Origin: a virus
Length of the DNA: 34,940 nt
Virus record (IMG/VR): IMGVR_UViG_3300020172_003232
Span: 1-34,940 of that record
Strand: one strand, 5' to 3'
Each line of letters starts with the position of its first letter. Positions within the stretch are counted from its first letter, which is position 1. Made by a program: the position numbers and the translations under genes. Positions 7,258 through 34,940 of this stretch are shown here, in pieces. The notes below the pieces were generated by a model. That model was not told where the DNA came from. It saw only the letters and a program-made list of their open reading frames with translations, and made no database searches.

Positions 7258-8391
7258 TCAGGAAGCCTTCACCAGGGTTACTCGCTTCGCCGTGGCGTTC
7301 ATTGTCGCTCCGGGCGTCAGGGGAATATTCAATGAAGTCAAGAGAAATTTCGTCGGAGAGTTGAGGGTCGGGTCCGGGTCGTTGAAGGTGATCGCCACCC
7401 CGACATCGAGCCATGGCGCCACAAGAGATTCCAAGTTTATTTCATAACTCTCCAACGCCATGATTCTGAGCATCGAATCGGCAAGATCCTGCGCCTGAGT
7501 GGAGGTGAGCACCAACTTGGAATCGTAGTTGTAGGTCCTTCTGCCAATCTTCGAGATATTTGTCGGAGATGAAGGTTCGTTATTCTCTGCCTGCGCCCAG
7601 ACCGGGATCGTGTCCGTGTTTCCGCCCTTGACGAGAATGTGGTTGTAGATGTTCGAATCGTTCGTCGACTTGGAGAAACTGGCAAGATTGCCATCCGAGC
7701 CGGTGTAGAAAGTGAATTGCGACGGAGCGGTCGTGGGGTCGACGTATTTACGCATCGTCAACACGCCGAAACGGTCGAAGAATACTTCCTGGTTGTAGGA
7801 ATTCGCGAGAGAAGAAATCGCATCCCATCTCGGCGAACCAGACTCCCACAGAACTTGAGACGCGAGCACCACCCCGGTCTGCTCGAAACTTGTGGTCGTG
7901 ATGCCAGAGTTGGTAGCGATAGCGCCGACGATGTTCTCAATGGACTGTCCGGCGGCGTAAGCTGTCGCCTCGCTGAACTTCGCCAGAATCATCTTCTTGG
8001 TGGCATCTCTGCCATTGACCGAAACCGAATTTGGGAAGTTATTCTCAGAGATTGAGTCGATGTAGAACGTCCCGACCGAATACATCTGAGTCGAACCGCT
8101 GTCGTCCCTGACGCCTCGATACACCTTCAGAACCTTGTCATACCAAAATCCATCAGGATCGGAAGAAAAGGATCCGTCGCTGTTGGCGAATGTAACGCTA
8201 ATCGTGCGGCGCTCGGCCCTTGAATAATCGACAGAGATCGACCCCTCGACCACCGGAGCATCAGCAACCCACACGGCACCGCCAGCGTCCAGGATGTCGA
8301 CCTTCACGGCCACCGTGCCGCTGCCGCCGAAGAACGATGAATCCGGGTCAGCAACGGAACCAATTCCGGTCGGAACCAAGTTCAAGCTCAT
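7258..8391 (-). CDS. Tail hub-like minor tail protein
   Basis: A 377-residue product. The order of beta domains (VEGSISVDYSRAERRTISVTF, a VYRGV...YSVGTFYIDSI strand pair, then NSVSVNGRDATKKM) is that of phage baseplate hub proteins related to gp27/Tal, which form the trimeric ring at the tail tip. A middle helical part (ENIVGAIATNSGI) and the final beta domain (PWLDVGVAITF, FLLTSLNIPL) complete the usual hub layout. I see no peptidase motif, so no cell-wall-degrading domain is supported. The ATG at 8391 overlaps the previous stop by ATGA. Confidence 0.7.
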   Translation of the reverse strand: MSLNLVPTGIGSVADPDSSFFGGSGTVAVKVDILDAGGAVWVADAPVVEGSISVDYSRAERRTISVTFANSDGSFSSDPDGFWYDKVLKVYRGVRDDSGSTQMYSVGTFYIDSISENNFPNSVSVNGRDATKKMILAKFSEATAYAAGQSIENIVGAIATNSGITTTSFEQTGVVLASQVLWESGSPRWDAISSLANSYNQEVFFDRFGVLTMRKYVDPTTAPSQFTFYTGSDGNLASFSKSTNDSNIYNHILVKGGNTDTIPVWAQAENNEPSSPTNISKIGRRTYNYDSKLVLTSTQAQDLADSMLRIMALESYEINLESLVAPWLDVGVAITFNDPDPTLNSPTKFLLTSLNIPLTPGATMNATAKRVTLVKAS

Positions 8392-10901
8392 CAGTCGGAC
8401 ACCTCCGAATACGGGATGGTTACCTCAAAGTATTCATTGGTTCCGACTCCAGCGATTCGATTGATCTGGATATCGCCCATCGCCACATCCCAGATGTCCC
8501 CGAATGGAGTGCGAAGTTTGCAAGTCACCGAACCCGCCCTCATGTCCTCCAGGGCAATTCGCTGCTGCGCCGCCGTCAACCCGGTCACGTCATAGACCTT
8601 CGCCTGCAAAGACCCCTTTACGCCGAAGCGAGTTCCTCTTTCGACCCTACGCCCCCGACCGATGAGCTGGATTTCCTCTTGCTCCCATTCCTCCGAGAAA
8701 GAATCGGAATTCACGGAAGAAAGTCTCAATGTTGTTGAATCGGAGATCAAGTAGTAATGGGTGCTGGTCAGCGTTAGCGTCGTGGGCGACGGGATGGATT
8801 CAACAGGGATTCCGAACCGATAAGCGGTCTGCGTCACGGCAATATGCACCGGGGTGTTCGCCGGGATGGCTGACGAAGTCAAGGTGTAGGTCGAGCCGGT
8901 AGACACCGTCGTGCTGTTGAGAAGCGTGTAGACGGAATCTGTAGTTTTCTTGTAGTAGAGCTTGTAAGAGATGAATGCCGAATCGCGATTCTGGTTCCAT
9001 GAAACAGACAGAGCGCCTGTGCTGCTGTCGTAGTTCGTCTGGCTCACCGTGATCGTTGGATTCGCCGGAGCATTCCAAGTCGTGGTGAAATTCACCGACA
9101 CAGAATTTTCCAGATTGTACAAATCCCTGACCTGCATCGTCACGGTGTACGCACTGGAATTCAAAAGCGGGATAGCCGGAACATAGGAAGCGACGGAACC
9201 AGTCTTCCAATTCGAATCGTCATGCGTGACGCCGCTTGATGTGTATTTGGTCAGGAATCTGTACTGGGAAATAGTTCTATTCGAAGTAAATGAATAGGTG
9301 GGACTCGGGTTGTCGAGTACCTGACTGGCCGTCGGGAGAACGGCGGTGATCGTCGGCAATGCCCTTACATAGAATTGAGAGTTGGCGCTATATGCGCTGA
9401 CGACATCATCGGAGTCGTATACCCTCACCCGCCAGCGAAGAAGAACGTTCTCGTAGGTGCTTGAGATAGTCCCCGTGTGACTGGTGGCAGAAGCCGTCCA
9501 CTTGCCGGTGTCGAGAATTGGAACCCCGTCAGAGTTTCTTTCAACGATAATCTGGTAAGCAGTCAGGTAGTCATATGGCGAACTATCGGAAAATCCAAAG
9601 GAGAATGTGACGTTTCCGCTTTGCCTTGAAGACTGACCGGAAGGCGACGTGGCCAACGCTGTCGGGGTGTGAGCCACCGTGAAAGTCTGAGAGGCCGACC
9701 AAGAACCGGCGACACCATTCGAATCGACTTCACGGCATCGGATGTACCAAGTTCCCTGGAATAGTTCCGCGGCAGCATCGCAGACTTTCGTTACGACTCC
9801 GCTTGTCACAAACTCAGTATCCGCCTGGATCAACGACCTCACACTGAGGGTGAACCCGGCATCGCGAGCCAATTGCCATTCAGCCTTTACGGTTGTTCCA
9901 CTTACCGAAGATGCGCCGAGGGTCGCGCCGAGCGTAGGCCTATCGGTGGTTTGCGTCGAACCGGCCACGGGTTTGATTGCTGTCGGAATCGGCGGAGCAG
10001 CAAGAGAGATGGTGAATTGCGAATATTGAGTAGCACCAAGTGCGGTGAGAGTGGTGCCGTCAACGGTTTCATGGCGATATCCGCTGAGACTGAGGCTCTG
10101 ACCCGCCATGACGTAGGCCCGATATGTGGTCCCGTTAGTCAAGCTTGTCGGCGGGACGTAATAGGTGTTAGTCGAATCCACCCAGTCGGAGTCAACAGTT
10201 GCCGTGCTGGTCTGCGGATTGAAGCCGCCAGCGCCGTATTGAGCGGCAGTAAAGATTCTCACCTTGTAGGCGGATTGCGGGAAATCGCCGGAGAAAGTCC
10301 AGTTGATGGTTGGTCTCGCCGTAGTCGTGACGGACGCGCCTGGTCCCGTTACCGCAAGGGTCGGCCTGGGATAAGTACCGAGAACTACCCCGAATCCACC
10401 AATTTGACTTACGTAAGTTGTCGCCCCGGCACCGCGATAACCCTCGAATTTGACTCTGAGGTTGTTAACGTCGCTACGGAAATCGAATCCCTGCCCGCGA
10501 GCAACGGACCCCATTGTCACCGGAAGCGGAGATTGATAAGGCTGGATCCAGTAGATCGTGTCCTGGTTGGACGAACCGGACAGCAAGACCTTGATGATCG
10601 TTTCGGACGACGCATCGTAAGCGATGTTTGGAATCGCCGGGCGGATGTATCCAATTGCGACACCCGAGGCGAGGGTTGGATTCGCCATCTCCATCAAGAG
10701 GGAACCAGAGTAGTATTGGTTCGTGCCGTCCCAAGCGAGATCGAGATAGGTGTTCGTAAAGCCATCGCCTGCCCAGGCGGTGTTGCTTATGTTTGGAGCG
10801 TTCTCCCTCGTCCCGTTCAGGTAAACGCTGCACTGAGACTGATGTGTACTCTTCGGGGTGACGTAGTCGCTGGGATAGATAGTGACTTCTGTTACTGCCA
10901 T
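8391..10901 (-). CDS. Large minor tail protein with Ig/FN3-like modules and distal-tail-like C-terminus
   Basis: An 836-residue product. Residues 1-175 form a beta-sandwich-like domain with aromatic residues (AWAGDGF, WDGTNQYYSGSL) that could bind carbohydrate. About five repeated modules of roughly 100 residues follow between 180 and 715, each with FN3/Ig-like marks (ARPTINWTFSGD, DRPTLGATLG, NVTFSFGFSDSSP, NPSPTYSFTSNR, GALSVSWNQN). The last 120 residues (QIELIGRGRR-like segment, then TPFGDIWDVAMGDIQ) resemble the domain of distal tail proteins that touch the tube end. It therefore looks like a distal tail protein carrying a long adhesive arm. It starts one base inside the tape measure stop (TAATG). 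Confidence 0.75.
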   Translation of the reverse strand: MAVTEVTIYPSDYVTPKSTHQSQCSVYLNGTRENAPNISNTAWAGDGFTNTYLDLAWDGTNQYYSGSLLMEMANPTLASGVAIGYIRPAIPNIAYDASSETIIKVLLSGSSNQDTIYWIQPYQSPLPVTMGSVARGQGFDFRSDVNNLRVKFEGYRGAGATTYVSQIGGFGVVLGTYPRPTLAVTGPGASVTTTARPTINWTFSGDFPQSAYKVRIFTAAQYGAGGFNPQTSTATVDSDWVDSTNTYYVPPTSLTNGTTYRAYVMAGQSLSLSGYRHETVDGTTLTALGATQYSQFTISLAAPPIPTAIKPVAGSTQTTDRPTLGATLGASSVSGTTVKAEWQLARDAGFTLSVRSLIQADTEFVTSGVVTKVCDAAAELFQGTWYIRCREVDSNGVAGSWSASQTFTVAHTPTALATSPSGQSSRQSGNVTFSFGFSDSSPYDYLTAYQIIVERNSDGVPILDTGKWTASATSHTGTISSTYENVLLRWRVRVYDSDDVVSAYSANSQFYVRALPTITAVLPTASQVLDNPSPTYSFTSNRTISQYRFLTKYTSSGVTHDDSNWKTGSVASYVPAIPLLNSSAYTVTMQVRDLYNLENSVSVNFTTTWNAPANPTITVSQTNYDSSTGALSVSWNQNRDSAFISYKLYYKKTTDSVYTLLNSTTVSTGSTYTLTSSAIPANTPVHIAVTQTAYRFGIPVESIPSPTTLTLTSTHYYLISDSTTLRLSSVNSDSFSEEWEQEEIQLIGRGRRVERGTRFGVKGSLQAKVYDVTGLTAAQQRIALEDMRAGSVTCKLRTPFGDIWDVAMGDIQINRIAGVGTNEYFEVTIPYSEVSD

Positions 10902-13900
10902 TATGATGCCGCCATTGCTTCGAGGTTCCTGATGAACTGCTCAGCGTCATCAGAATTACTGATGTTCGGGAATGATAGATCCCCGTAGAAGTTGATGGTC
11001 TTGCCGCTGGAAGAATCCGAGGCCATCGACTGTTCCGGCGCAGAAATCGCTTTGTCAATGAGGCGCATCATCTTGATGGAGAGAACGCCTTCACCGGCCT
11101 GAAGAACTGCCGGTACGTCCGAGCCAAGAACGCCAGGCACAATGCCCCCGGTGTGCAGGGAGCCAGCGGAAGTTCCATATGTGGGATCAATCTCCATCGG
11201 GATTGAAGGACGCTGGAAATTCACACTCGATCCAATCGTGCCAAAAACACTTTCAAAGGCGGATCGCGCCCAGGGGGGCAATATCGCAAGCAACAATTTT
11301 CCCAGTTCGCTTGCCAATCGCGTGGCCCCGTCCCACAGGCCGCTTATCATTCCCCAAATCAAGCTGCCCGACAAACGCATTCCCAGATAAACTAGCCCAG
11401 ACCCCAATGCCACCAAGCCCGTAAGCAAGTCGAAAGATGCCTTCAACATCAACGGGATTCCATCAGTAATCACCCACCTGGCGTAACTCCCAGCCCAGGC
11501 CGCAAGCTTCACCAACAATCCATCTTTCTCCCCTGGTTCGAGGAACCCAAGGAATGCCGCCATCATCTCATTGCTCTTGACGATCAAATCTGGAATTGCT
11601 CTGCTTGTTATCCAATTCCCAAAATCTGTTGCCCACTTTTCGAGCTTCTCGCGAGTTTTGGGCCACGATTCAGTAACCCAATTGATAAATCTATCTTTCA
11701 ACTTGGTAATTGCATCTCCAGCAACATCGAGTTTCTTCGAAATAAATTCACCTACGCCATAGAGTCCGTTCTTATCCCAAGCATCAGTGATGCCTTCCCA
11801 CATTTTCTCGGCTTTCTCTCTTACGTCATCAACAAATTTTCCAATAATTGTCCTACGTTCAGCGTAATGCTCCATAACGTCAGCGGAGCCGAGAAGTTCA
11901 CCCTTGTCGCTCCTGGGCATGTATCCGCCAAGAATCTTCTCCTTGAGAGTTTTCATCCCGTCGCCGATATTGCCGAATACGTTAAGTACGTCATCCTTGA
12001 ATTTGCTCAATTTGTCGCGAACCGGATCGAAATCGAACATGGCTTTCAATGAAGTCTTGAAATCGTCTATGATTTTCTGGAAAACTTTGTCGATGTCCAT
12101 ATCCTCAATGTTCTTTTTGAGGTCCTCCTCCCAGTCCCCAGTGGCAAGTTCATCCATTGCGCCACCGGCAGCGCCAGCAGCATCGGACATTGCATCAAGA
12201 TCGCCAATTATGGATTCGATCGCGCTATTGATATCGCCGTACATGGACTTGAGTCCGTCGTATGCACCCTGCAAATCGTCGAGTTTGCCTTTCTCGACAT
12301 CCAGCGTGAATCCAAGGTCATCATGCGCCGTCTTGAGGATGTTCACAGCATCTCGCTGGGTCTTGGCCGCCGCTTCAGCCTCGCTGAGTCTTGGCGTCAA
12401 TTCGTCGATCTTCACCCTGGCAGCCGCCATGCCAGCAATGATCTCCTCGAACGTCGCCTCTCTTGTGGCGTTCGCCAGCTCCTCAATTTGACGCTTCATG
12501 GGGTCGAATTGAATTGCTCCTTGCAAGTCAAGACGTTCGGCCTCACGCTGGAGACGCTTGAGTTCTTCTTCAAGTTTGGAAATCTGACTACCGCCGGTGC
12601 CGGAAGCCAACGCCGCACTCTCCGCCCTGAGCTGGGCGATCTTCTGCTGAATCGGATCTGTGATTTCAGACCCAGCACCAGATTCCCGAAGATTAGTTTG
12701 GAGCGCCTGGAGCTGCTCGATCTCGCCAGCGAGTAGCGCCATCTTGTTCTTTACGTCGTCGATGCTTCCGTAAGTATCTTCGATTCTCATTATTTCAAGT
12801 CGAAGACGCTTTTGGGCCATTTCGTTCTCGAACAAAGCGTCAGACAGTTGCTTGGAACCCTGAATTGGCCTATTCGCCCAATCGGACAATTCAGATTTCG
12901 CCGCCTCCATCTGCTCTTTGAGTGAAGATGAAGTCTCCTCCAGCTTCTTCAATTTGAATTCGGCGTCATCGAGTGCCCTGCCGAGCCTCTTGTATTCAGC
13001 CTCAAGCCCGGCGACCACCTTCGACTGGGCATCAATTTCGATCTGCACCGACTCCATGGCGGCGGAAAGCTGATCCATGCTCACCCACAGCGATTCAACC
13101 GCTGGCATGAGCTGCGGCTGTTGAGAGCCGATCTGTTCGCGCTGCTTGTCTCGCTTGACCCCGATCGCACCTTGGCTTATCGACTTTGTCGCTTCGCCGA
13201 ATTCACGGAGTTTGGCGGCGGCTTCAGCGTAGATATTCCCGATGCCGCTGAGCCTGGCGTACTGCCGGGCGATCTCGGTAACGCCAGCGGTGACATTGTC
13301 GACCAACGACGGAGAGTGCCGTTGGAATGGATTCAGATACTTGAGCATGTCAACGATTGCCTTGACCGCAGAACTAACAATTCTGAACAGCGCCAAGAGT
13401 GCATTTTTGACCGGCGCAGGCAGAGCATTGAAGACTCGCACGATGAATCTGCCGACAGCCTGGAATGCCTTCATCGTCCAGTCGATTGCGGGCTTGAGGG
13501 CTTTGTAAATATCGTCCCTGAATACCCAGAGCAAAGCGATGACAGCCACGACCGCCGCGGCAAGCGCAATATATCCGAGAATCGGGGCGGAACTCGCAGC
13601 GGCGCCGGATGAAGCGGCTGCACCTTGGGCGCCGATAAGCCCCTTGGTTACACCAATCGCAGCCTTGGTCGCCGAGATGAGCGCCTTGAATCCGCCAAAC
13701 ACCCACCCGAAGGCCTTGCCGATCAGCATGAAAGAACCAAGAATCCTCGCCATCGGACCAAGAACGGCGAGGAATACCAGGCCGATGACAAGCATCTTCT
13801 TGCTTCGATCACTGAGGCCATTTATGGCCTCGGCAATCACTTCGATGATCCCCAACACCCTAAGAATAACTGGCAGCAATTGAGCAAAGATGTCATTGCC

Positions 13901-16819
13901 GATGTTCTTGATTTTGGTCTTGACGATGTCGATCTGGCCCGGAGTGGATGCGAGCATTGTTGCGATTTCGTCCTTGTAGGTCTTCATCGCATCGGTGCCA
14001 CCTTCCATCGCCCCGGCGGTAGCATCAATAACCTTTGCGTAAGTGGACTGCTTGCGAGTCACTGGATCCAGGGAAAGCGCGATGTCTTCAAACAGCAAAG
14101 ATGCCTTATTGAGCTGATACCTTCCGATAAGTAACGTATTCAATTGATTCTTCTGAGCATCGTCGAGGTTCATAAACGCTGCGGCAAGGGCTTCCATACG
14201 TTGCGTCGCCGTCATGCTGTTCATCGTCTGGTTCCAAACGATCCCAACTTCGGCAAGTTCTTCCTTGAACTTTTGGGTCGGATTCATGACGCGACTGATC
14301 ACGGCCCTGAGACCGTTGCCGACATTTTCGGCAGTGCCAGCCGCAGGAGTGAGAGTTGCCAACATCCCGGCGAGTTGTTCAATCTTGATTCCAGCTTGGC
14401 TGGCCACTGAAGCACTTCGAGCGAACCCGTCGGTCAAGTCCTTAAAGGACGCCGCCGTGATGTTCTCGGTCTTGTTGAGTATTGCCAGAGCGCGAGTGGT
14501 TTGCTCAAGGGAAAGCCCGTAACCCTGCTGCACCTGGATCAGGGCCTTGAACGCATCGTCGGCATCTTCAATGTCGCCGACCTTCATGGCCTCCATGGAC
14601 ATTCTTGTCGCCGCGAGGAGAGCGCCACCCTGATATCCAGCCGCAGCCCACTTGGCGGCGAGTTCCTCAACTTGGTCGATTTGAACGCCCATGCCGTCCG
14701 ACAGGTATCTGAATCCCTTACCAAGCTTGTAAGAGACAGTTTCCTGAGATGCGCCTACTTTGGTGAGGCTCTTGCCAAGCGCATATTGAGATTGGTTGAA
14801 TGAATCCGCAGCGTTGGTGGCATCACCATAGACCTTCGCTATCCTGGTGACCTGGATAGCGCTCTGCTTCTGTAATTCATAAAGGGCCTTGCCAGCCCTC
14901 ACCATTGGCAAAGTGAACGTGTATTCGAGCTGCCTGCCCGTCCACATCATGTTCTTGCCAACATCAACGAGGGAGCGTCGCTGGGTGGTCAAAGAGCCGT
15001 TCAAGGCGCTGCCAGCGTCCGTGGCGCGCTTCATCGCATCGCCAATTCGCTTGTATTCGGACGCAGCCTGGACGTTGACTTTGGAACCGGCCGGATGCAT
15101 TGAACCAATGGCCGATACCTGCTTCTGCGCTTCCCCCATGGGAATCTGGCCAACGGCAGCACGCTTGCGAATGAGGAGCAACTCATTCATGTGCTGTTCC
15201 ACCAGGCGACGCTCTTCAGTGTTTCGCATCTTCAATCTGGCGATTGACAGATCGTCAGCGATCTTCTGCGCCGACAATCCAGAATTCAAATAATTCTTTT
15301 CGATCTTGTTGATTTCGTCATTGGCCTGAGCGAATGAAATCAACCTGGAGTAGTGCCTTTGGCGAATACCCTCAATCTGCTTGACGGTATCGCCATGAAT
15401 TTTCACCTCTCTCGCCTGAGTGAGGTTCAGCATGGACTGATCTGCGGCCTTCTTGATCGCCGGAGTTGAATTCAGTCCAGTCTTGATAGCGCCTGCGGCC
15501 AGCAAGGACTTCTGGTAACCGACCTTGCCCTTGATGAAATCCTGCTCGATCTTCCTGAGCTGATCGGTAGCAGACTTCTCGTTCCTGATATTGATCGCAT
15601 TGAGGGCGTCGGAGGCCCTGGTTCGCGCTTGCGCCTGCTTGATCGAGTTGGTTGTGTGTGTATTGTCGATGCCCTCACGCACCTTGGCGATTTGGGCTTG
15701 AGCGTCAGTGAAGCTGATCTTCTGCTGCCTGAATCTCGCCTCGATGCCAGCGGCCTGCTGGGTGAATGCCTTCAGCCGGTCGATTGAAGCCTTCTGGATA
15801 TTCGCTTCAGCAGCGGCCCTCACCTCAGGATTGCCCGACGCTCCAGCGTTGTATCGGGTCCTGGTGACCATCTGGGAGTATGCAATCTGCCCGTTCGCAT
15901 ATTCCTTGCTGATCTTGTTCAGGTAATCAATTTCGTCTTTCTTGATTGCCTTTATTCTTGCGCTTTCGATCTTCGCCAAATTGATTTTGGCTTGACGAGA
16001 AACCTCTCCACCTTGAGCAATTTTGTTTTGGATGGAAGGATCAGCATTTGGCTTTTGCCAAATGCCCTTGATCCTCTTCGAAGCCGCCTCGGCGTCGATC
16101 AACCCGCTGTTGAATTCCTTCATAGCGTTGGACATCTCGGTCTTCATGGACCTGATGGAAGCTTCGAGGCGCTTCTGATCGTCCCTTTGAACCTTGGATG
16201 TGCGTGCGATTTCCCTTGCGTCAAGCGCCCTGTACGCCCTCGCCTTCTGAATGTCCACAGCGGAACCAGGGGCCGCACCTTCGCCAAGCCTGGAAATCCC
16301 GCGACGAGCAGCAAAGGAGCGAATCCGGCCCGTTTCCTCCTGGGCGAGAATTCTCTTGATGCTGCGGATTTTCTCGGCTTCTTCTTCCCTTATCTTCTGT
16401 CTCGCAATTTTCCCAATCGCATCAAGCTGCCTGCGCTGGGCGACCACAACGTCAGGCGTCTGAGCCATGAATCGGCCCTTAGGGTCGCGGCGTTTGGCAC
16501 CCAAGGCCTCAACCCGCTTGGCCGCTTCTTCGGCAGAAATCATGTTCCGCTTGAATTGCTCAACAACATTCTTCATGTTGCCGATAATCGTTCTTGATGC
16601 GGTCTCGATTGCCTTCTGGTTTGCAAGCACTTTCTTCTGGGCTTCTTCAACGCCCTTGGCTTGCTTCGCTGTCTGCTTCACGGCGTCAGCGACAGCCTTG
16701 AGGCCAGAGGCAGAACTCCTACCCTTGGCCCCAAGGCCCTCAATGGTCTTGACCAGGGCGGCCAGTTCCTGAGCCTGCTTCACTGCGATCTCGATCGTGA
16801 TCCGCAAAAGGCTGTTCAC
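10901..16819 (-). CDS. Tape measure protein
   Basis: At 1972 residues this is the longest gene. It contains the TP901-type tape measure core at roughly residues 640-860 (RAGKALYELQK, then AAKWAAAGYQGG and LTPAAGTAENVGNG), two hydrophobic segments near 1005 and 1085 (LVIGLVFLAVLGP; YIALAAAVVAVIALLWVF) and very long coiled-coil stretches before and after. Tape measures set tail length by spanning the tube; using the rule of about 1.5 angstrom per residue, a tail of near 300 nm is expected. No lytic transglycosylase or peptidase motif is seen. The GTG start at 16819 has AGGGGG a few bases upstream, embedded at the end of the tail chaperone frameshift extension. Confidence 0.95.
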   Translation of the reverse strand: MNSLLRITIEIAVKQAQELAALVKTIEGLGAKGRSSASGLKAVADAVKQTAKQAKGVEEAQKKVLANQKAIETASRTIIGNMKNVVEQFKRNMISAEEAAKRVEALGAKRRDPKGRFMAQTPDVVVAQRRQLDAIGKIARQKIREEEAEKIRSIKRILAQEETGRIRSFAARRGISRLGEGAAPGSAVDIQKARAYRALDAREIARTSKVQRDDQKRLEASIRSMKTEMSNAMKEFNSGLIDAEAASKRIKGIWQKPNADPSIQNKIAQGGEVSRQAKINLAKIESARIKAIKKDEIDYLNKISKEYANGQIAYSQMVTRTRYNAGASGNPEVRAAAEANIQKASIDRLKAFTQQAAGIEARFRQQKISFTDAQAQIAKVREGIDNTHTTNSIKQAQARTRASDALNAINIRNEKSATDQLRKIEQDFIKGKVGYQKSLLAAGAIKTGLNSTPAIKKAADQSMLNLTQAREVKIHGDTVKQIEGIRQRHYSRLISFAQANDEINKIEKNYLNSGLSAQKIADDLSIARLKMRNTEERRLVEQHMNELLLIRKRAAVGQIPMGEAQKQVSAIGSMHPAGSKVNVQAASEYKRIGDAMKRATDAGSALNGSLTTQRRSLVDVGKNMMWTGRQLEYTFTLPMVRAGKALYELQKQSAIQVTRIAKVYGDATNAADSFNQSQYALGKSLTKVGASQETVSYKLGKGFRYLSDGMGVQIDQVEELAAKWAAAGYQGGALLAATRMSMEAMKVGDIEDADDAFKALIQVQQGYGLSLEQTTRALAILNKTENITAASFKDLTDGFARSASVASQAGIKIEQLAGMLATLTPAAGTAENVGNGLRAVISRVMNPTQKFKEELAEVGIVWNQTMNSMTATQRMEALAAAFMNLDDAQKNQLNTLLIGRYQLNKASLLFEDIALSLDPVTRKQSTYAKVIDATAGAMEGGTDAMKTYKDEIATMLASTPGQIDIVKTKIKNIGNDIFAQLLPVILRVLGIIEVIAEAINGLSDRSKKMLVIGLVFLAVLGPMARILGSFMLIGKAFGWVFGGFKALISATKAAIGVTKGLIGAQGAAASSGAAASSAPILGYIALAAAVVAVIALLWVFRDDIYKALKPAIDWTMKAFQAVGRFIVRVFNALPAPVKNALLALFRIVSSAVKAIVDMLKYLNPFQRHSPSLVDNVTAGVTEIARQYARLSGIGNIYAEAAAKLREFGEATKSISQGAIGVKRDKQREQIGSQQPQLMPAVESLWVSMDQLSAAMESVQIEIDAQSKVVAGLEAEYKRLGRALDDAEFKLKKLEETSSSLKEQMEAAKSELSDWANRPIQGSKQLSDALFENEMAQKRLRLEIMRIEDTYGSIDDVKNKMALLAGEIEQLQALQTNLRESGAGSEITDPIQQKIAQLRAESAALASGTGGSQISKLEEELKRLQREAERLDLQGAIQFDPMKRQIEELANATREATFEEIIAGMAAARVKIDELTPRLSEAEAAAKTQRDAVNILKTAHDDLGFTLDVEKGKLDDLQGAYDGLKSMYGDINSAIESIIGDLDAMSDAAGAAGGAMDELATGDWEEDLKKNIEDMDIDKVFQKIIDDFKTSLKAMFDFDPVRDKLSKFKDDVLNVFGNIGDGMKTLKEKILGGYMPRSDKGELLGSADVMEHYAERRTIIGKFVDDVREKAEKMWEGITDAWDKNGLYGVGEFISKKLDVAGDAITKLKDRFINWVTESWPKTREKLEKWATDFGNWITSRAIPDLIVKSNEMMAAFLGFLEPGEKDGLLVKLAAWAGSYARWVITDGIPLMLKASFDLLTGLVALGSGLVYLGMRLSGSLIWGMISGLWDGATRLASELGKLLLAILPPWARSAFESVFGTIGSSVNFQRPSIPMEIDPTYGTSAGSLHTGGIVPGVLGSDVPAVLQAGEGVLSIKMMRLIDKAISAPEQSMASDSSSGKTINFYGDLSFPNISNSDDAEQFIRNLEAMAAS

Positions 16820-17697: not shown

Positions 17698-19005
17698 TCA
17701 GGTAGCGGTGGCCAAATCGTCGATGACGGTCGCGGTCACTGCCGGGACGACGGGATCGTTGCGGAGAACCGTGAATTCGACATCGTGCTCGATCGCGTCT
17801 TCACCACTCGGAGACATTTCGAATGGGCTCATGGCCGCAGTCGGGATGTCGAGTCGGAAGGTGTAGGGCGAAGTAGCGCCCTGCACATCCTCGTAGGTGG
17901 TGCAAACCAACGTGAGGGAACCATAGGAAGCCACTCCAGCTCGCGGGCTGGTAAGAGCACTTCCGCCGTAGGTCGCCTCACGCCAAAGTGCCGAAGTCTC
18001 GGGACGGATGGTGCAACCAAGCTTGAACATGCGCCGACGCTCGGTAATGTCGCCCAAGGTGAAGGACCCGAGACGGAAATCGTCGTCCTCCATGTTGTTG
18101 GTGATCTCGAAGTTGAAGCTCTTTGCCGGGAGGGCGATGCCGTTCCAATACACCGTGATCAAGGAACCCTGGAACATCGGCGAAAGGTCGTAGTTCGGGT
18201 TGGCCTGAGCGGTGAAGTTGGCGACCTGGGTCATGGCCACAAGGTCGGCGGAACCCATCATGTAACCACCGGCATCGGACTCAACCTTGACCCGGGACAC
18301 CTTCGCGTCGGTGTATCGGAAAGATTCGAGGTTGTAGGAAATACGCTCCTCAACCGAAAGCCACGGCAAGGTGGAATCGGAGGGGGTGATGACATGCGTG
18401 CCCTTGACCGGATGACCGCCAGTGGCTTCAACAACGGTCACCGATGGGTTGGTGCCGCCGGTGAGACTGGAGGACGCCGTCAAGAGGTACGCATTGGTAG
18501 CAGCGAGGGAGCCAGCGAAAGTGACCGTGTATGGCCCTCCAGTCGACCCCGACACCGTAACGTTGCTAGCGCCGATGGTCGTAAGGGCCTGGAGGGCGCC
18601 TTGGACAGCGCCACTTGCAGCGTTGTGGTTGATCGCAGTCGTGGTCTGCCCACGATACGTCAAGGTGAAAGTGCCGCCGGTTGGCGAACCGCTGAGAGTG
18701 ACGGTCTGGACTTCGGCCGTCCCGGCGACGGTGGTGCTGGAGACGGAACCAAAAGCTCCACGAAGAAGAATGGCAAGCGTCTCGGCCCGAGCATAGAATT
18801 CGTAACCGCCCGAGAAGCTGATCGGGCCGAGGTACGCCTGAGGCACGTCTCGGTTGCCACCGATTTCAGGATCGGGGATCAACAATTCTCGCTTCGGCGC
18901 GAGAGCACCACTTCGCATACGGACGAATCGGGTGGCGGCAACTGCCGTCCCCTTCGCCCCCTGAATGCCGAACCCAACCTGACCCTGCTGGCTGGTGTAT
19001 CCCAT
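17698..19005 (-). CDS. Major tail (tube) protein with inserted beta domain
   Basis: A 435-residue product from ATG at 19005, preceded by GAGGAG at 6-7 bases. The N-terminal part (SQQGQVGFGIQGAKGTAVA, then PEIGGNRDVPQ and FSGGYEFYA) and the C-terminal part (NFEITNNMEDDDFRLGSFTLGDI in part; a final EHDVEFTVLRND) are those of siphovirus tube proteins. Residues about 97-197 are an extra module rich in Gly/Thr (SPTGGTFTLTYRGQ, VTFAGSLAA, SLTGGTNPSVTV) also found in the decoration protein at 21756-22538. Many subunits stack to form the tube, so the module would be displayed in rings along the tail. The position before the chaperones supports the call. Confidence 0.88.
   Translation of the reverse strand: MGYTSQQGQVGFGIQGAKGTAVAATRFVRMRSGALAPKRELLIPDPEIGGNRDVPQAYLGPISFSGGYEFYARAETLAILLRGAFGSVSSTTVAGTAEVQTVTLSGSPTGGTFTLTYRGQTTTAINHNAASGAVQGALQALTTIGASNVTVSGSTGGPYTVTFAGSLAATNAYLLTASSSLTGGTNPSVTVVEATGGHPVKGTHVITPSDSTLPWLSVEERISYNLESFRYTDAKVSRVKVESDAGGYMMGSADLVAMTQVANFTAQANPNYDLSPMFQGSLITVYWNGIALPAKSFNFEITNNMEDDDFRLGSFTLGDITERRRMFKLGCTIRPETSALWREATYGGSALTSPRAGVASYGSLTLVCTTYEDVQGATSPYTFRLDIPTAAMSPFEMSPSGEDAIEHDVEFTVLRNDPVVPAVTATVIDDLATAT
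18415..18717 (-). repeat. Shared beta-domain module, copy in the tail tube protein
   Basis: About 100 codons (EVQTVTLSGSPTGGTF to VVEATGG) that match, with the same order of strands, a module in the capsid decoration gene at 21990-22304. At the DNA level the two share at least GTGAAAGTGCCGCCGGT on the plus strand. Confidence 0.8.
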
Positions 19006-19021
19006 CAAGAACTCCTCTGAA

Positions 19022-19513
19022 TCAGGCGATCTCGGTCGTTACTCGAAAATCTGTTGAAGACATGAACGCGAATCCACCTTTGAATGCAGTGTCGACGCAC
19101 TCCTGGCGGTCGACGCGAATTCTGATGACACGTTCATGCAGCTCTCCGCTCAACACGGAAATCGAATACAATGATATTCGCAAATCTTGATCGCGATACA
19201 GCATTCGACGCAGACGATTTGCAAGAACGGCGCCGAGATGTTCGCCGTCCTCACGCTTTGTATGTTTGATAAGGCTTTGGATTGCGAAAGAATAGGTTGC
19301 CATCGCTGGCTCCCAGCCGGAGATGTTGGCGCTTTCCTGCGGCTCCCAACCGGAGAACGTAACCCCAATGCTGATGTTCGGATCGGCACCGTCGAGCGCC
19401 CTCTTGAAGATTCTTGGAGAAAACTCGACGCCATAGTCGGTGAAATCAATTCCACCGAAAGCATCACACAGGGCGTCGATGACAAGAAGTTCAATCGCCG
19501 GAACAGCCGTCAT
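19022..19513 (-). CDS. Probable tail terminator / tail completion protein
   Basis: A 163-residue alpha/beta product (PAIELLVIDALCDAFG helix, then TYSFAIQSLI and RISLYSISVL strands) located directly before the tail tube gene, where siphoviruses encode the gpU-like ring that caps the tail. No unique motif is visible, so the call rests on gene order and size. The ATG overlaps the previous stop (ATGA). Confidence 0.6.
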   Translation of the reverse strand: MTAVPAIELLVIDALCDAFGGIDFTDYGVEFSPRIFKRALDGADPNISIGVTFSGWEPQESANISGWEPAMATYSFAIQSLIKHTKREDGEHLGAVLANRLRRMLYRDQDLRISLYSISVLSGELHERVIRIRVDRQECVDTAFKGGFAFMSSTDFRVTTEIA

Positions 19514-20052
19514 TTGCCGCGCATCCCATCAAATATCCATTTGATTGCAAGAAGTTCAATATCGTCTTGGTCTTTTGAGTTCATACCCAAAACCGGACGG
19601 GCTGGAACATTGCGCTTCTGATCTCCAACCTGAGCCACCTGGAGCTTCTTCCTCATTGAATCCACGGACGCCGCCATCTGCCCCATCCCGACGGGACCGG
19701 GGATCGTCAACTTGGCGACACCGGAAGGGGAGGCGAAAGAATGAGAATTCATCAAATGATCGAACATTGCGAACGATCTAATGTTTATCGGCTCGGAAGG
19801 TCTAATCCTGAACCCGTAATTCCTGATGTCCATTTCGCGATAACGAATGGTTGAATCCTTGAGCGGCTTCCAAGGGCCGGACACGTCATCGCCCTGAGAA
19901 CCGAATCGGTGCCCAATTCTCCCCCTGGCATATGGATACACGTCGCGCTTGAGGAATTCAGATCGCCCCTTGGTGGAAATCTTTTCATTGAGTCCGTTCA
20001 GGATTGAATTGATATTCTTCAAATCGGACTGATTGATCTCGACGGAGAGCAT
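19510..20052 (-). CDS. Neck / virion morphogenesis protein (gp10- or gpG-like)
   Basis: A 180-residue product with a basic middle and the C-terminal element VPARPVLGMNSKDQDDIELLA in part (about residues 148-165); the RP-x-L-G followed by a D-rich helix is the mark of the phage virion morphogenesis / HK97 gp10-like family that joins head and tail. The N-terminal helix-rich part (SDLKNINSILNGLNEKI) is also typical. It starts at an ATG overlapping the connector stop. Confidence 0.7.
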   Translation of the reverse strand: MLSVEINQSDLKNINSILNGLNEKISTKGRSEFLKRDVYPYARGRIGHRFGSQGDDVSGPWKPLKDSTIRYREMDIRNYGFRIRPSEPINIRSFAMFDHLMNSHSFASPSGVAKLTIPGPVGMGQMAASVDSMRKKLQVAQVGDQKRNVPARPVLGMNSKDQDDIELLAIKWIFDGMRGK

Positions 20053-20522
20053 CAGATATTCGGCCTCCAGAGCTTGGCCGTCCCATTTGTCACGTTGTCG
20101 TAGAATACGTCAAACGCTGAAGCACTGTCCTGGTAAATGACCGTCGGGGCATTGCCGGTATCAGCCACGGAAGTGTCTCCGGTTGGGGGCAGGAGCGTCG
20201 CCCCGATGAGGTTCATGTCGCCGCTCTTGATGTCGTCGAGAATGGCTTTTGCCTCGCTCAGCAAATACATCCCGTAAGCGTTTGGGGTCGTATCCTCGGA
20301 GGCTACGGAATTCGCCATCACCAATCGGCCGGTGGCCAACAATACGCATACACGTTTCAGCAGATTGTATGAAGCTGATCCAGCCGCAAGGCCGACAGGA
20401 ATCACATATCGCATCCCGATGATTGCGTCGATTTCATCACCGGCAGCATTGATAAATTTCTCGGAGTCGTCGGCGCTGATCGGAAGATCGCCGAGAAGAA
20501 GATCCTCATGTTCACAGTACAT
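20052..20522 (-). CDS. Head-tail connector / adaptor protein
   Basis: A 156-residue product located immediately after the major capsid gene. The N-terminal half (EHEDLLLGDLPIS, then AAGDEIDAIIGMRY, then LLKRVCVLLATGRLVM) shows the helix pattern of gp6/gp15-type connector rings, which bind below the portal. The C-terminal part is polar. AAGGAG lies 6 bases before the ATG at 20522. The call is from gene order and helix pattern, without a specific motif. Confidence 0.65.
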   Translation of the reverse strand: MYCEHEDLLLGDLPISADDSEKFINAAGDEIDAIIGMRYVIPVGLAAGSASYNLLKRVCVLLATGRLVMANSVASEDTTPNAYGMYLLSEAKAILDDIKSGDMNLIGATLLPPTGDTSVADTGNAPTVIYQDSASAFDVFYDNVTNGTAKLWRPNI

Positions 20523-20539
20523 TCCAACTCCTTTTCAAA

Positions 20540-20583
20540 GTGGCGAGGCTCGCCACAAGTCAAGCAGACTCGCGGCGAGCCTC
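20540..20583 (-). promoter_or_regulatory. Overlapping inverted repeats after the capsid gene (attenuator or processing site)
   Basis: Two mutually exclusive hairpins can form in the 88-base gap between the capsid and connector genes. The first pairs GTGGCGA with TCGCCAC (20540-20556, 3-base loop); the second pairs GAGGCTCGCC (20545-20554) with GGCGAGCCTC (20574-20583), 10 bp and perfect. On the minus strand the first hairpin is followed by TTTGAAAAGGAG, so it could act as a weak terminator right before the connector's ribosome site. Confidence 0.55.
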
Positions 20584-20610
20584 AAAGACTCATGCCAAGT
20601 ATTCGCCCGA

Positions 20611-21717
20611 TCAGGGGGCGAGGACCTGCATCGTGTAGCTCTTGTCGAGGTGCGGCATGACCGGGAAACCCTTGCAGCCCGAACCAACGTCGTAACCCCA
20701 GGGGTCGACGGTGGAACGCTCCCACTCATAATAACCGCTCTGGAAGTTGCCCTCCGGGTGCGGCGAGGTGAGGGTCTTGCCAAAGCCGATCATGTCGTCA
20801 AGGGCGGCGATGTCGGCCTGCGACGGAATGAAGTAAGCCTTCTTGGGATCGAGGAACTTCGTGTTGACCGTCGAGTTCGAGCCAAGCGCGCGAGTGCGAT
20901 AGACCGAGTCGTAGACAAGGAAGTTGATCCCGGTCTGGTTCTCGATAACCTGCCGAGCGGCATCGGGACCCCAGCCCGCCACCGAATACAACGGGTTGCT
21001 GCCGATGAGGGAATTGGTGAACTTGTCGCTCTTGTAAAGGTTGCGAACGATCTCGGACGAGATGATCACGGTCCCCATGCGACAGCCGTAGGTGTCATAC
21101 ATGTAATCATCGACCGACATGATGTCGCCGATGGGGTCGGCGGTGGCCGAAGACCAGTACTGACCGGAGGGGCAAGCCTCGTCGGTCTGGTTGGCAGGCC
21201 GACCGAAATCAACGGTGAAGATGATCTTGCCGTCGTTGTAGGTGATGCCGCCAGTCTCAAGTGCCTCGGTGATCATCCACTCGAACCGGTTGTCGAGCAT
21301 CCGGCGACGACGGCGAGCATCGCGCGCCAGCTTGGTCTGCCACTCATCGGTCATCGAGCGGATTGCAAGCGGGAAATTCTCGGCACCGGCAATATCGCCA
21401 AGGGCAAGAGCCTCCCGATACCGGGTCACATCCGAAGCCGAATAGTGATCCTTGATCGCCCAGTCGATAATGGCGGCACGGCCGGTGCCAACCGAATCGT
21501 CCTTACCGGCCATTTCGGATTCGGCATCCTCGGCTCGCGCCGGGGCGAGGCCAGCAGTGAAGCCTCGGGTGTAATCGAAAATTACATCGTCACTTGCGAC
21601 TGCCTGGAATGGGGCCAGCAGCCGAAGCCCGATATGGTCCTGGGGAGGCTCGAATTCGCGAATGACGCCAAGGGCGACTTCCTTGCGAACGAGACGATCC
21701 TGCGAGAGCGACGGCAT
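20611..21717 (-). CDS. Major capsid protein, lambda gpE-like
   Basis: A 368-residue product. The segment at about 135-175 (ARRRRRMLDNRFEWMITEALETG, then ITYNDGKIIFTVDFGRP in part) is characteristic of the lambda gpE-type capsid family (HK97 fold), as is the later YGCRMGTVIISSEIV helix-strand pair and the C-terminal beta part (GYYEWERSTVDPWG). Hundreds of copies build the icosahedral head. The ATG at 21717 has AAGGAG 5 bases upstream. The gene follows the decoration protein as in lambda (D then E). The N-terminus has no obvious scaffold domain; scaffold comes from the protease gene. Confidence 0.92.
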   Translation of the reverse strand: MPSLSQDRLVRKEVALGVIREFEPPQDHIGLRLLAPFQAVASDDVIFDYTRGFTAGLAPARAEDAESEMAGKDDSVGTGRAAIIDWAIKDHYSASDVTRYREALALGDIAGAENFPLAIRSMTDEWQTKLARDARRRRRMLDNRFEWMITEALETGGITYNDGKIIFTVDFGRPANQTDEACPSGQYWSSATADPIGDIMSVDDYMYDTYGCRMGTVIISSEIVRNLYKSDKFTNSLIGSNPLYSVAGWGPDAARQVIENQTGINFLVYDSVYRTRALGSNSTVNTKFLDPKKAYFIPSQADIAALDDMIGFGKTLTSPHPEGNFQSGYYEWERSTVDPWGYDVGSGCKGFPVMPHLDKSYTMQVLAP

Positions 21718-21755
21718 TTGTGCTCCTTGATACGATTCTTGGTCTGGAAATGCCG

Positions 21756-22538
21756 TCAGACGGCAAAGTGGATGTCGAGGTTCTTCTTACCGAACATCTG
21801 ACCGGCAGTGGTGTCAGTCAGAGCAATTCGCGCACCAGCAGCATTCAGCTCGTAGCAGCGATCCTGGTACACGTCGGCCTCGTAGATAACCGAAACCTCA
21901 CGGTCGCCCTCAATGAGCTGCCACGGGAGGAAGGTCATGCAAATCCCGACGATGTTCGAAGTCGTCTGACGCCCGTCGGTCGCTCCGGCGACGCCAGTAG
22001 TCGTCTGGGTGACAGCAATCGCCGGAGTCGTACCACCGGTGAAGGAGCCAGTCGCCGTGATGGCGGGCTGGTCCTGACCACCCTCCTGCGAGCCGACGAA
22101 AGTCACCACATAGGGGGTGCCGGGGCCGGGGCCACCGGTAACGGTGACATCATCGGCAGTCAGGTCCGTGGAGGCGTCCACCAGGGCGGTCTTTACCGCG
22201 GCGGCGGTGGCGTTGTAAGCAATCGCGGCGGTGGTCTCGCCCTGGAAAGTCAGGGTGAAAGTGCCGCCGGTCGGCGTGCCGGTGATCGTGATGGTCTGCA
22301 CCTCGTTGGTGCCAGCCGCCTGGAAGGGACCGATCTTGCCGGAATCAGGCCCGGACGTGATGACCGCCATGACCGTGCCAGGCTGAAGGACCTTCTGCCC
22401 GGTGTATCCGTCGATGGTCTCCGACGGAATCGTCGAAGCCGCAACGGTGCGGGAAATGGTCTTAATATCCTGCGTGGATCGCAGGAACTCGTTCTTGCCG
22501 AACGGAGTTGCGAAGGAATCCTTGCGGTACAGGGGCAT
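21756..22538 (-). CDS. Capsid decoration protein, lambda gpD-like, with inserted beta domain
   Basis: A 260-residue product, about twice the usual length for the family. The decoration fold is split: residues 50-77 (VLQPGTVMAVITSGPDSGK in part, then GPFQAAG) and 188-245 (DGRQTTSNIVGICMTFL, VIYEADVY) match gpD-type proteins, which form trimers that clamp the capsid. Between them, residues about 79-183 are a Gly/Thr-rich module (TPTGGTFTLTFQGETTAA, VTGGPGPGTPYVVTF) that also occurs in the tail tube protein. The insertion lies in a loop, so it probably projects outward. CGGAG precedes the ATG, which lies one base before the upstream stop. Confidence 0.82.
   Translation of the reverse strand: MPLYRKDSFATPFGKNEFLRSTQDIKTISRTVAASTIPSETIDGYTGQKVLQPGTVMAVITSGPDSGKIGPFQAAGTNEVQTITITGTPTGGTFTLTFQGETTAAIAYNATAAAVKTALVDASTDLTADDVTVTGGPGPGTPYVVTFVGSQEGGQDQPAITATGSFTGGTTPAIAVTQTTTGVAGATDGRQTTSNIVGICMTFLPWQLIEGDREVSVIYEADVYQDRCYELNAAGARIALTDTTAGQMFGKKNLDIHFAV
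21990..22304 (-). repeat. Shared beta-domain module, copy in the decoration protein
   Basis: About 105 codons (EVQTITITGTPTGGTF to QTTTGVAG) matching the module at 18415-18717 in strand order and key residues (PTGGTFTLT, a T-A-x-x-x-x-N-A core, a TFxGS strand and a TGGTxP turn). The copies differ enough to exclude a very recent duplication. Confidence 0.8.
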
Positions 22539-32488: not shown

Positions 32489-34940
32489 CTATTTCTGATT
32501 CGCTGCGACCAGCAGGCGCGATGGAAAATCCGTAGATTCGATTATGACCGAAGTGTCGTCCAGATGGTCAACAGTTCTGCTTGGTAGGTCCCAAACATTT
32601 ATCGAAATTGAGCATTGATCCGTCGTGGCGAGAATTGCTCGCACCGAATCGGTTGCAACAAGCTCGACCTCCAGCAGCGACGAAACCAAAGCCGAGCCAC
32701 TGATTGCAGCCGATAGTGGGCCAAGCGGGATGACAACATTCCCGCTATTGATTGGCAGGCCCGAAAAGTTTCCGGTAAGGCTTGCAAGTTGATTCTGGGA
32801 CTGACCAGCGATTCCCTGCTGGCCCGCAGACGAAGCCAATGCGCCGTCAAGTTGCCCAGACAGTGTTCCAGCGATTGTCGGAGCCACAAAAGTGCCCGAT
32901 GCGGAAGCTGATCCGTTTTCAAGCTGGCTGGCGAGAGAACCTTCAACCGCTACGCCACCACCGGAGGAAACCGAAACGCCGCCGAGGGAGCCGGAAAGAT
33001 TCCCAACGAAAATCTGATCACCGGACGCCGAAATTGACGGATTGTCAATTGCCGCCGATGCGATCCCGGACAATCGCTCGATTCCAACGATTGTCGTCGT
33101 GCAGCCGACCGTTGAAGTGAACTGACCTGGAATGTCCAGGGAGCCAGATGCGACGCACTGGATATCACCCAGCAATTCCGAGATTGAACCCTGGAAATAT
33201 TCAAATCCCGAAGAAGTAATCGTCGAGTCGCCGAGGGAGACCGCAACGGATCCAGAGATCGTTTGAGATCCAGAAGAAGTAATCGTTGAATCGCCGAGGG
33301 AGACCGCAACAGATCCAGAGATCGTTTGAGATCCAGAAGAAGTAATCGTCGAGTCGGCGAGGGAGACCGCAACGGATCCAGAGATCGTTTGGGATCCAGA
33401 AGAAGTAATCGTCGAGTCGCCGAGGGAGACCGCAATGGATCCAGAGATCGCTTGAGATCCAGAAGAAGTAACCGTCGAGTCGTCGAGGGAAACCGCAACG
33501 GATCCCGAGATCGTTTGAGATCCAGAAACTGTTGGACCGTTGTAATAAGAATAAATAATCGAAAGATCGGATGAAGAAAGAGCTGTTGCAAAAGTTGCAA
33601 CGGGCATTGGAGATTCGGCATCGAGATCAGTACCGGCAGCAAGGTTGGCACTGTTGCCAAATCGCAACGATGTCCCGGTCTCGTCGTTCCCGGTTCTAAG
33701 TGAAGTTGCCCCAAGGTTGACTCCCGAAGGAGTTACCGAAAATGCCCTTACCGTCGTTGGCGTGACGATTGCACCGACAAGGTTCAATGCGCCAGGAGTT
33801 ACCGACACCGAAGAAGTGGTTACCGATGACGTTCCATCGCTGACGACCACGCGAGCCGATGTTGTTCCGGCAAGCTCGACCTGTACGCCCTTTGTGGAAG
33901 AAGCGTCCCTGGTGGTAACCACCACATTGCCAGCGACCTGCGTCGCCCAGGGTCTGATAAGCGATGCAATGGTGCATGAATCCGATGCGCCAAGAGCCGG
34001 AGTGGTGGTCGAACTCGCGTAATCGTCGGTTCCGACAAGGATTGTCGGACTCCGAACGACAGCGGTCTTGATGCCAGACGTTGATCTTCCAATTGAATAC
34101 GTGGAACCAGAAATAGGGTCGACGTAGCCGGTTTGACCGCAATGAGACGCATCGAAAGTGATCGAAGGGGAACCATCAATCACTGATGCCATCTGAGCTG
34201 CTACGACATTGGTTCCCGCCTGCGACAAGTTGCCGCCGTTGTAATAAGATCCAATGCCGAATCCAGTTGTTATCGCCCAAACTGAGCGAGTATTGCCGGC
34301 GCTGGTTGTCCCAAGCTGAGTCCAGCCAGAATTCGATGCGACATCGGCAGCGGCGGTGGCGTAGGTCGTGGCCTTGGTAAAGAACTTCGCCTGACCCAAA
34401 GCCTTATCCCAGGTGGCTCGAACCGCCCACAAGGAGCCGTCGGCGAACCCCGTGGCGACACTGCTCGTTGGCGAAGCAAAGCCGACCCCGTCAGACCAAG
34501 TAAGGCGCAGTTGTCCGCCAGTGAGAACCTGCAAAGTCGAATGACCGTTTACGGCGGCGGACAGCCCCTTCGACAGGAGAATCATGTTGCCGCTCGGAGT
34601 CCAGTCGACAAGAGCGATTGCAATTCGATAATCAAATTGAATTGCAGAATCGAGCGCCGTTGTAGCTGAACCGGCGATATAGGAACTGGTGCCAGTGAAT
34701 CTTACTGAAGGCGAAATTGCATCCAGAAGGGTTGGCGAATTCGCACTCAGCCCAAATGAAAGCTGAGAAGCTACGGCGCTGGAGCTGTCGAATAGGCCCG
34801 TCTGGCTCGCCCCGGAGGCGACATCGAACCAAGAGGTTGGGGAATAGGCCGTCGGTGGGACAACCCCAACAGGACCAAGAGCTTTCGACAGGCTTCCAGA
34901 GATCGTCGGGGCGACGTGGGTGCCAGAGATCGTCTGGGAG
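32489..34940 (-). CDS. Large surface/tail protein with LamG-like domains and tandem repeats, 5'-truncated
   Basis: The frame is open past the right window edge: I read 118 further in-frame codons between the ATG at 34585 and the edge with no stop, so the true start lies outside. The visible 816 or so residues begin with SQTISGTHVAPTISGSLS, a partial version of the later repeat, then two concanavalin/LamG-like beta domains (FTGTSSYIAG... and VRSPTILVGTDDYAS...), five 21-residue repeats (SQTISGSVAVSLGDSTITS-type) and a run of decaying repeats to the C-terminus. LamG domains bind sugars or proteins, so receptor binding is likely. It lies convergent to the replication operon, apart from the main tail cluster. 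Confidence 0.75.
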   Translation of the reverse strand, partial: SQTISGTHVAPTISGSLSKALGPVGVVPPTAYSPTSWFDVASGASQTGLFDSSSAVASQLSFGLSANSPTLLDAISPSVRFTGTSSYIAGSATTALDSAIQFDYRIAIALVDWTPSGNMILLSKGLSAAVNGHSTLQVLTGGQLRLTWSDGVGFASPTSSVATGFADGSLWAVRATWDKALGQAKFFTKATTYATAAADVASNSGWTQLGTTSAGNTRSVWAITTGFGIGSYYNGGNLSQAGTNVVAAQMASVIDGSPSITFDASHCGQTGYVDPISGSTYSIGRSTSGIKTAVVRSPTILVGTDDYASSTTTPALGASDSCTIASLIRPWATQVAGNVVVTTRDASSTKGVQVELAGTTSARVVVSDGTSSVTTSSVSVTPGALNLVGAIVTPTTVRAFSVTPSGVNLGATSLRTGNDETGTSLRFGNSANLAAGTDLDAESPMPVATFATALSSSDLSIIYSYYNGPTVSGSQTISGSVAVSLDDSTVTSSGSQAISGSIAVSLGDSTITSSGSQTISGSVAVSLADSTITSSGSQTISGSVAVSLGDSTITSSGSQTISGSVAVSLGDSTITSSGFEYFQGSISELLGDIQCVASGSLDIPGQFTSTVGCTTTIVGIERLSGIASAAIDNPSISASGDQIFVGNLSGSLGGVSVSSGGGVAVEGSLASQLENGSASASGTFVAPTIAGTLSGQLDGALASSAGQQGIAGQSQNQLASLTGNFSGLPINSGNVVIPLGPLSAAISGSALVSSLLEVELVATDSVRAILATTDQCSISINVWDLPSRTVDHLDDTSVIIESTDFPSRLLVAANQK
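33211..33525 (-). repeat. 63-bp tandem repeat, five copies
   Basis: Five units start at 33211, 33274, 33337, 33400 and 33463, each exactly 63 bases and nearly identical, encoding a 21-residue unit. Degenerate versions of the unit continue beyond 33211 towards the gene's 3' end, which suggests successive expansions of one ancestral unit. Confidence 0.92.

Follow-up and report, generated by a model that had tools for sequence, protein, structure and literature searches.

The window analysed here is the whole 34,940-base stretch of a virus contig, IMGVR_UViG_3300020172_003232, which is possibly incomplete. Two of its genes each carry one copy of a protein module of about 100 residues, and two copies only were detected in the record. 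The features on which the analysis was based are given below.

10901..16819, minus strand: tape measure protein, 1972 aa (PhageMin_Tail 5.7e-28, PHROG 5448), used solely for the estimate of tail length
17698..19008, minus strand: tail tube protein, 436 aa as called (PHROG 290, relatives, fold match)
18415..18720, minus strand: module copy 2, aa 97-198 of the tube protein (module HMM, empty homologues, model)
20611..21717, minus strand: major capsid protein, without module (Phage_cap_E 4.9e-16, PHROG 29, tree), which served as the species-tree marker
21756..22538, minus strand: head decoration protein, 260 aa, with inserted module (PHROG 5455 1.2e-41)
21993..22310, minus strand: module copy 1, aa 77-182 of the decoration protein (module HMM, empty homologues, model)

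The decoration gene is flanked by the genes for the maturation protease and the major capsid protein and lies upstream of the latter. Its match to PHROG 5455 (head decoration) is split around the module and its annotated relatives are LamD-like capsid decoration proteins, and hence family match and gene position agree on a LamD-like head decoration protein. The tube reading frame was called from TTG, and the next codon, ATG, is probably the true start, as in relatives. Its cultured relatives are annotated as major tail protein and its model matches the tubes of P74-26, SH-Ab15497 and T5 (8ed0, E 3.1e-16; 8xan, TMt 0.79), which places it by fold with the T5 pb6 / P74-26-type tail tube proteins. 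Two further minus-strand reading frames of the window were recorded, an 836-aa minor tail protein (8391-10901) whose residues 430-512 match the Rha78A-like N-terminal immunoglobulin domain PF25788 at 1.7e-09, and a 698-aa frame (32489-34585) having no PHROGs or Pfam match at the thresholds used.

Homology, predicted fold and insertion sites

The original prediction held that the two genes carry the same module although the host proteins are unrelated, and both parts of this claim were borne out by alignment. The two modules reached a Smith-Waterman score of 241, far above all of 1000 shuffles (mean 52, sd 9, maximum 98), by which chance or low-complexity similarity is ruled out, and all three motifs quoted in the prediction (TGGTFTLT, TFxGS and TGGTxP) were found. 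The non-module remainders of the two proteins scored 39, which is within the shuffled range (maximum 52). Residues 77-182 of the decoration protein and 97-198 of the tube protein are homologous, and the similarity is confined to the modules.

Structures were predicted by AlphaFold from alignments of 56 (decoration) and 65 (tube) sequences, and both models were confident (pLDDT 92.6 and 92.4). Both modules have the topology beta-beta-alpha-beta-beta-beta-beta, in the order strand, strand, helix, strand, strand, short helix, strand, strand; the strands span 79-180 with the helix at 112-122 in the decoration model, and 100-194 with the helix at 132-140 in the tube model. Foldseek returned the Bxb1 tail tip, Patience gp22, the Bxb1 capsid and the Bxb1 tube in that order, followed by tail-sheath domains (Milano, 7-7-1, Mu) and flagellin/FliD domains. 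The Bxb1 capsid domain was matched by the decoration module at E 2.1e-05 (3.7 A over 106 columns) and by the tube module at E 0.022 (3.5 A over 102 columns). With this matching secondary structure and these common targets, the two modules are predicted to have one fold. That fold is not the Ig-like one which had been proposed: a helix lies between the second and third main strands of each module, no Ig family rose above the cut-off in family searches with the module, and the best solved matches are the Bxb1 and Patience virion domains. The module falls outside all Pfam and NCBIfam families, and PHROGs include it merely as part of larger families, mostly of tail proteins.

Relatives without the module exist for both genes, the decoration protein being then about 150 residues and the tube protein about 337 residues long; they align on both flanks of the module and skip the module itself. 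Six viral contigs of this kind were found initially, then dozens more, together with cultured Gordonia and Rhodococcus phages. Since these relatives lack the module at exactly the two sites, both copies are clean insertions, and the possibility that the module is an integral part of either carrier is ruled out. In the decoration protein, module 1 is inserted between GPFQAAG and VAGATDGRQT, and the site in most filled relatives reads GP(F/Y)QA.., module, (V)AGA.DGR, a few of them having additional residues as a linker. In the tube protein, module 2 interrupts a variable loop that follows helix 75-86 and strand 87-94; the site is bounded by this helix-strand unit, near ..GALG.., on one side and by ..H.(I/F).P.D on the other. 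The module had been predicted to split a gpD-like fold at an exposed loop; the empty homologues and the model uphold the insertion into a loop of the decoration fold. As for a solved gpD-type structure, the empty decoration homologues had no sequence match in the PDB, the PDB fold matches of the decoration model fall on the module, and BFVD gives a weak match to one head decoration protein.

Inserts of more than one type can be taken up by the decoration fold: in three members of this decoration family (L036:8001-8681, L038:8001-8681 and L039:812-1492), another insert, some 75 residues long (TATNRVLTSN...GTVTGG), occupies another loop, before the KILQPG motif.

These sites bear on a structural explanation, in which the decoration copy would strengthen the capsid and the tube copy would contact neighbouring subunits, like domain 2 of the YSD1 tube protein. 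In YSD1, this domain interrupts the tube protein between alpha1 and beta4 and lies against the adjacent subunit (PMC8718954), the tube insert of the window comes just after the helix-strand unit corresponding to that of YSD1, and decoration proteins of such kind cement capsids (PMC7602432). Against this, relatives assemble without the module, the tube linkers have blocks of pLDDT about 69 at both module ends, which suggests flexible attachment, and the two copies, sitting on different lattices, are unlikely to have a structural interface in common. We consider reinforcement of the particle quite improbable.

Repeated gain of the module in the phage group

Among 65 viral contigs having both genes, the module was absent from both in 52, present in both in nine and present in the decoration gene only in four (one of these four has just a 68-residue tube fragment), while no contig had it in the tube gene only. 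The co-occupancy of the two genes gave a Fisher p of 2e-8 over the 65 contigs, which is overstated as the contigs are related. In the tube tree, the filled tubes are split between the window and a clade of 11, and two changes are required by branches with good support; the window tube is a long branch whose exact placement is unsure. In the tree of the capsid protein, decoration occupancy requires at least six changes, again forced by well supported branches, and in the shorter decoration tree at least three. The module was thus gained repeatedly in this phage group, as judged from the minimum number of changes on these trees. A single filled ancestor followed by losses was rejected, since with at least six decoration changes forced it would need many more losses.

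Both independent tube gains fell on lineages whose decoration protein is filled. The chance of this is about 4% by our own estimate, which takes about a fifth of contigs as filled in the decoration gene and ignores the shape of the tree, and it suggests that the decoration protein was filled first and the tube later.

The origin of the two copies of the window was analyzed in a tree of the modules. They group with modules of cultured actinophages, apart from the modules that most other filled relatives carry, and are not sisters of each other, although support in that part of the tree is limited. This grouping supports a probable separate acquisition from a common pool in the window lineage and disfavours recent internal duplication. 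Modules of the same phage were barely more alike than random pairs (0.476 vs 0.447, permutation p 0.03), with one contig standing out at 0.66. In that contig, 3300044109_000001 (L018:4530-5303 and L141), the decoration module shares 66% identity with the tube module, which sets this pair apart from the others and may reflect copying from one gene to the other within the genome.

It could be asked whether the two genes acquired a common module independently and for different reasons, with the shared coat being coincidental. The separate branches of the window copies, the four decoration-only contigs and the slight likeness of same-phage pairs would fit with such unlinked insertions, but the absence of tube-only contigs and the background of both tube gains speak against them, as do the recurrence of head-plus-tail occupancy in the unrelated Bxb1, Philly, NTR1 and prophiT49-3 and the many viral contigs having two or more carriers. 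Unlinked insertion is held to be decidedly improbable.

The wider search found the module at 1506 places in cultured phages, in 975 of 50,697 phage records. The carriers are nearly all phages of actinobacterial hosts (mostly Mycobacterium, Gordonia and Rhodococcus) along with Microcystis, in a collection where actinophages are heavily sampled. The decoration module alone gave nothing by tblastn against phages, perhaps owing to low-complexity masking, and the tube module succeeded. Scans of collections used a consensus query, the module alignment being too diverse for them. In about two dozen of some 80 sampled viral contigs, two or more genes lying no further than about 6 kb from the match carried the module. 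Among the phages named above that carry the module on head and tail, the head carrier of NTR1 is annotated as tape measure and is, judging from its sequence and place, probably a capsid protein. In Planctomycetota genomes (L178, L180, L181, L188 and L189), open frames of about 2200-4100 aa have 3 to 11 copies of the module, some of them head to tail.

Candidate role on the virion surface

To the following reading we give an even chance: the diverged copies of this surface module of about 100 residues would work as a multivalent, weak surface adhesive. The self-contained and horizontally spreading module is inserted in loops of the decoration and tube proteins, and because both carriers occur in many copies on the exterior of a siphovirus, the head and the tail together would display hundreds of projecting modules. 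Each module would bind polymers of the host surface weakly, and those of the head and of the tail would jointly keep the particle on the cell while the tail tip has yet to meet its receptor.

The modules are predicted to face outward. An outward add-on is favoured by the relatives without the module, by the lower-confidence tube linkers and by the scant room which we judged to be left for extra 100-residue domains in the tube lumen or between the rings. The earlier proposal that one module coats head and tail alike is plausible and has a parallel in the capsid, tube and tail tip of Bxb1, and its tube half depends on the predicted outward projection. As a rough estimate, there may be about 420 decoration copies if a trimer sits at each local three-fold axis of a T=7 head (T being assumed). 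Scaling of the 1972-residue tape measure to T5 or lambda would roughly give 65-74 tube rings, and if each ring has three subunits, like those of T5-type tubes, the tube would carry perhaps about 200 module copies more.

The near confinement to actinobacterial phages fits a role tied to the host envelope, and the 3 to 11 copies in large Planctomycetota proteins are as expected of a surface module. The sticky or sugar-binding layer that had been suggested earlier may be such a role, by analogy with phage Douge; nothing in the analysis spoke for the immune-evading layer suggested with it. Glycines, along with residues of the helix or the core, make up most of the best conserved positions of the module, and neither an aromatic nor a charged conserved patch stood out; as these positions look structural, they argue against one conserved sugar site. 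The 52 contigs that do without both modules also count against adhesion.

Alternatively, a readily spreading module may simply land in permissive loops of actinophage structural genes and be tolerated there with little benefit to the virion. Several carriers and sites are known, including the unrelated insert that members of this decoration family have in another loop, most relatives have no module, no conserved functional site is seen, and the FN3 domain of the SPP1 tube is dispensable (PMC8718954). Long retention in the clade of 11 filled tubes, the recurrence of head-plus-tail occupancy and the near restriction to actinobacterial phages tell against such a hitchhiker, which we regard as unlikely.

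The order of filling leads to a bolder proposal, namely that whole-virion coating evolves as one trait: a mobile module would enter a preferred loop of the decoration protein first and, in lineages so filled, a preferred loop of the tube afterwards, and head and tail would thereby acquire a common adhesion to the host surface, in parallel in separate lineages. We put this forward tentatively, as possible and somewhat doubtful. Add-on domains of phage surfaces have long been regarded as promiscuous decorations with no clear use. A group in which phages have neither, one or both modules, with repeated parallel gains, offers a natural experiment for comparing adsorption, and a widespread module of actinobacterial phages, known from solved structures and lying outside the Pfam and NCBIfam families, is seen to spread through insertion into loops in addition to fusion at the C-terminus.

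Comparison with known virion domains

Among the closest known systems is the virion of mycobacteriophage Bxb1 (PDB 9d93, 9d94, 9d9w and 9d9x), for which our statements rest on the PDB entries and the HMM scan of this analysis. A related module is present on its capsid gp14, tail tube gp19 and tail tip gp23 (E 7.7e-47, 3.2e-11 and 6.6e-07, respectively, with a sequence profile of 18 modules); these are the Bxb1 chains that Foldseek returned as well. The capsid domain is also alike in fold, at 34-35% identity and 3.5-3.7 A over 106 columns. Sequence homology (9d93, 9d9w, Bxb1 gp19) and fold thus both place the module of the window with the virion surface module of Bxb1 and Patience. Bxb1 likewise bears it on both head and tail of one phage, but its capsid and tube domains lie near the C-terminus, whereas those of the window are loop insertions, and its head carrier is the capsid protein instead of a decoration protein. 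In gp23 (L277:18927-20984), the record note aligns the protein to D29 gp27 solely at residues 9-265 and 614-685; the module array fills the gap between these parts and looks like an insertion relative to D29.

In Patience, a related domain with a weak sequence match is found at aa 109-193 of the 232-residue minor capsid protein gp22 (PDB 8giu), and no module was found in the major tail protein. The gp22 protein sits at local three-fold axes and has a relative in Adjutor without one of its domains (PMC10635136); this missing "peanut-like" domain may be the related module.

Douge likewise has add-on domains on head and tube alike, which differ in being C-terminal and are described as Ig-like; its capsid and tube domains, 919 per particle, bind surface glycans of M. 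smegmatis, and its adsorption is slower on a host without surface arabinomannan (PMC13033339). None of the Douge chains was among the matches of the module profile in the PDB, so that the glycan-binding precedent serves as an analogy only.

Other decoration proteins have received the module as well. In the phrog_3583 group (L182:704-1453 and L225:5767-6501), a decoration family independent from that of the window, it is inserted at a site that looks equivalent, the gene lying immediately before that of the capsid protein, and likewise in the decoration protein L262:5767-6498; L182 has it also on the major tail protein, where it is C-terminal. In Microcystis phage Mae-JY24 (L011:5151-5879), it lies in a decoration-position protein between the protease and capsid genes, and the copies of this phage and of L222 occupy different loops from the decoration copy of the window. 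Sharing of the module by head and tail is therefore already known and recurrent, and what is new here is that loops of both carriers have received it, in a group where relatives with and without it occur together.
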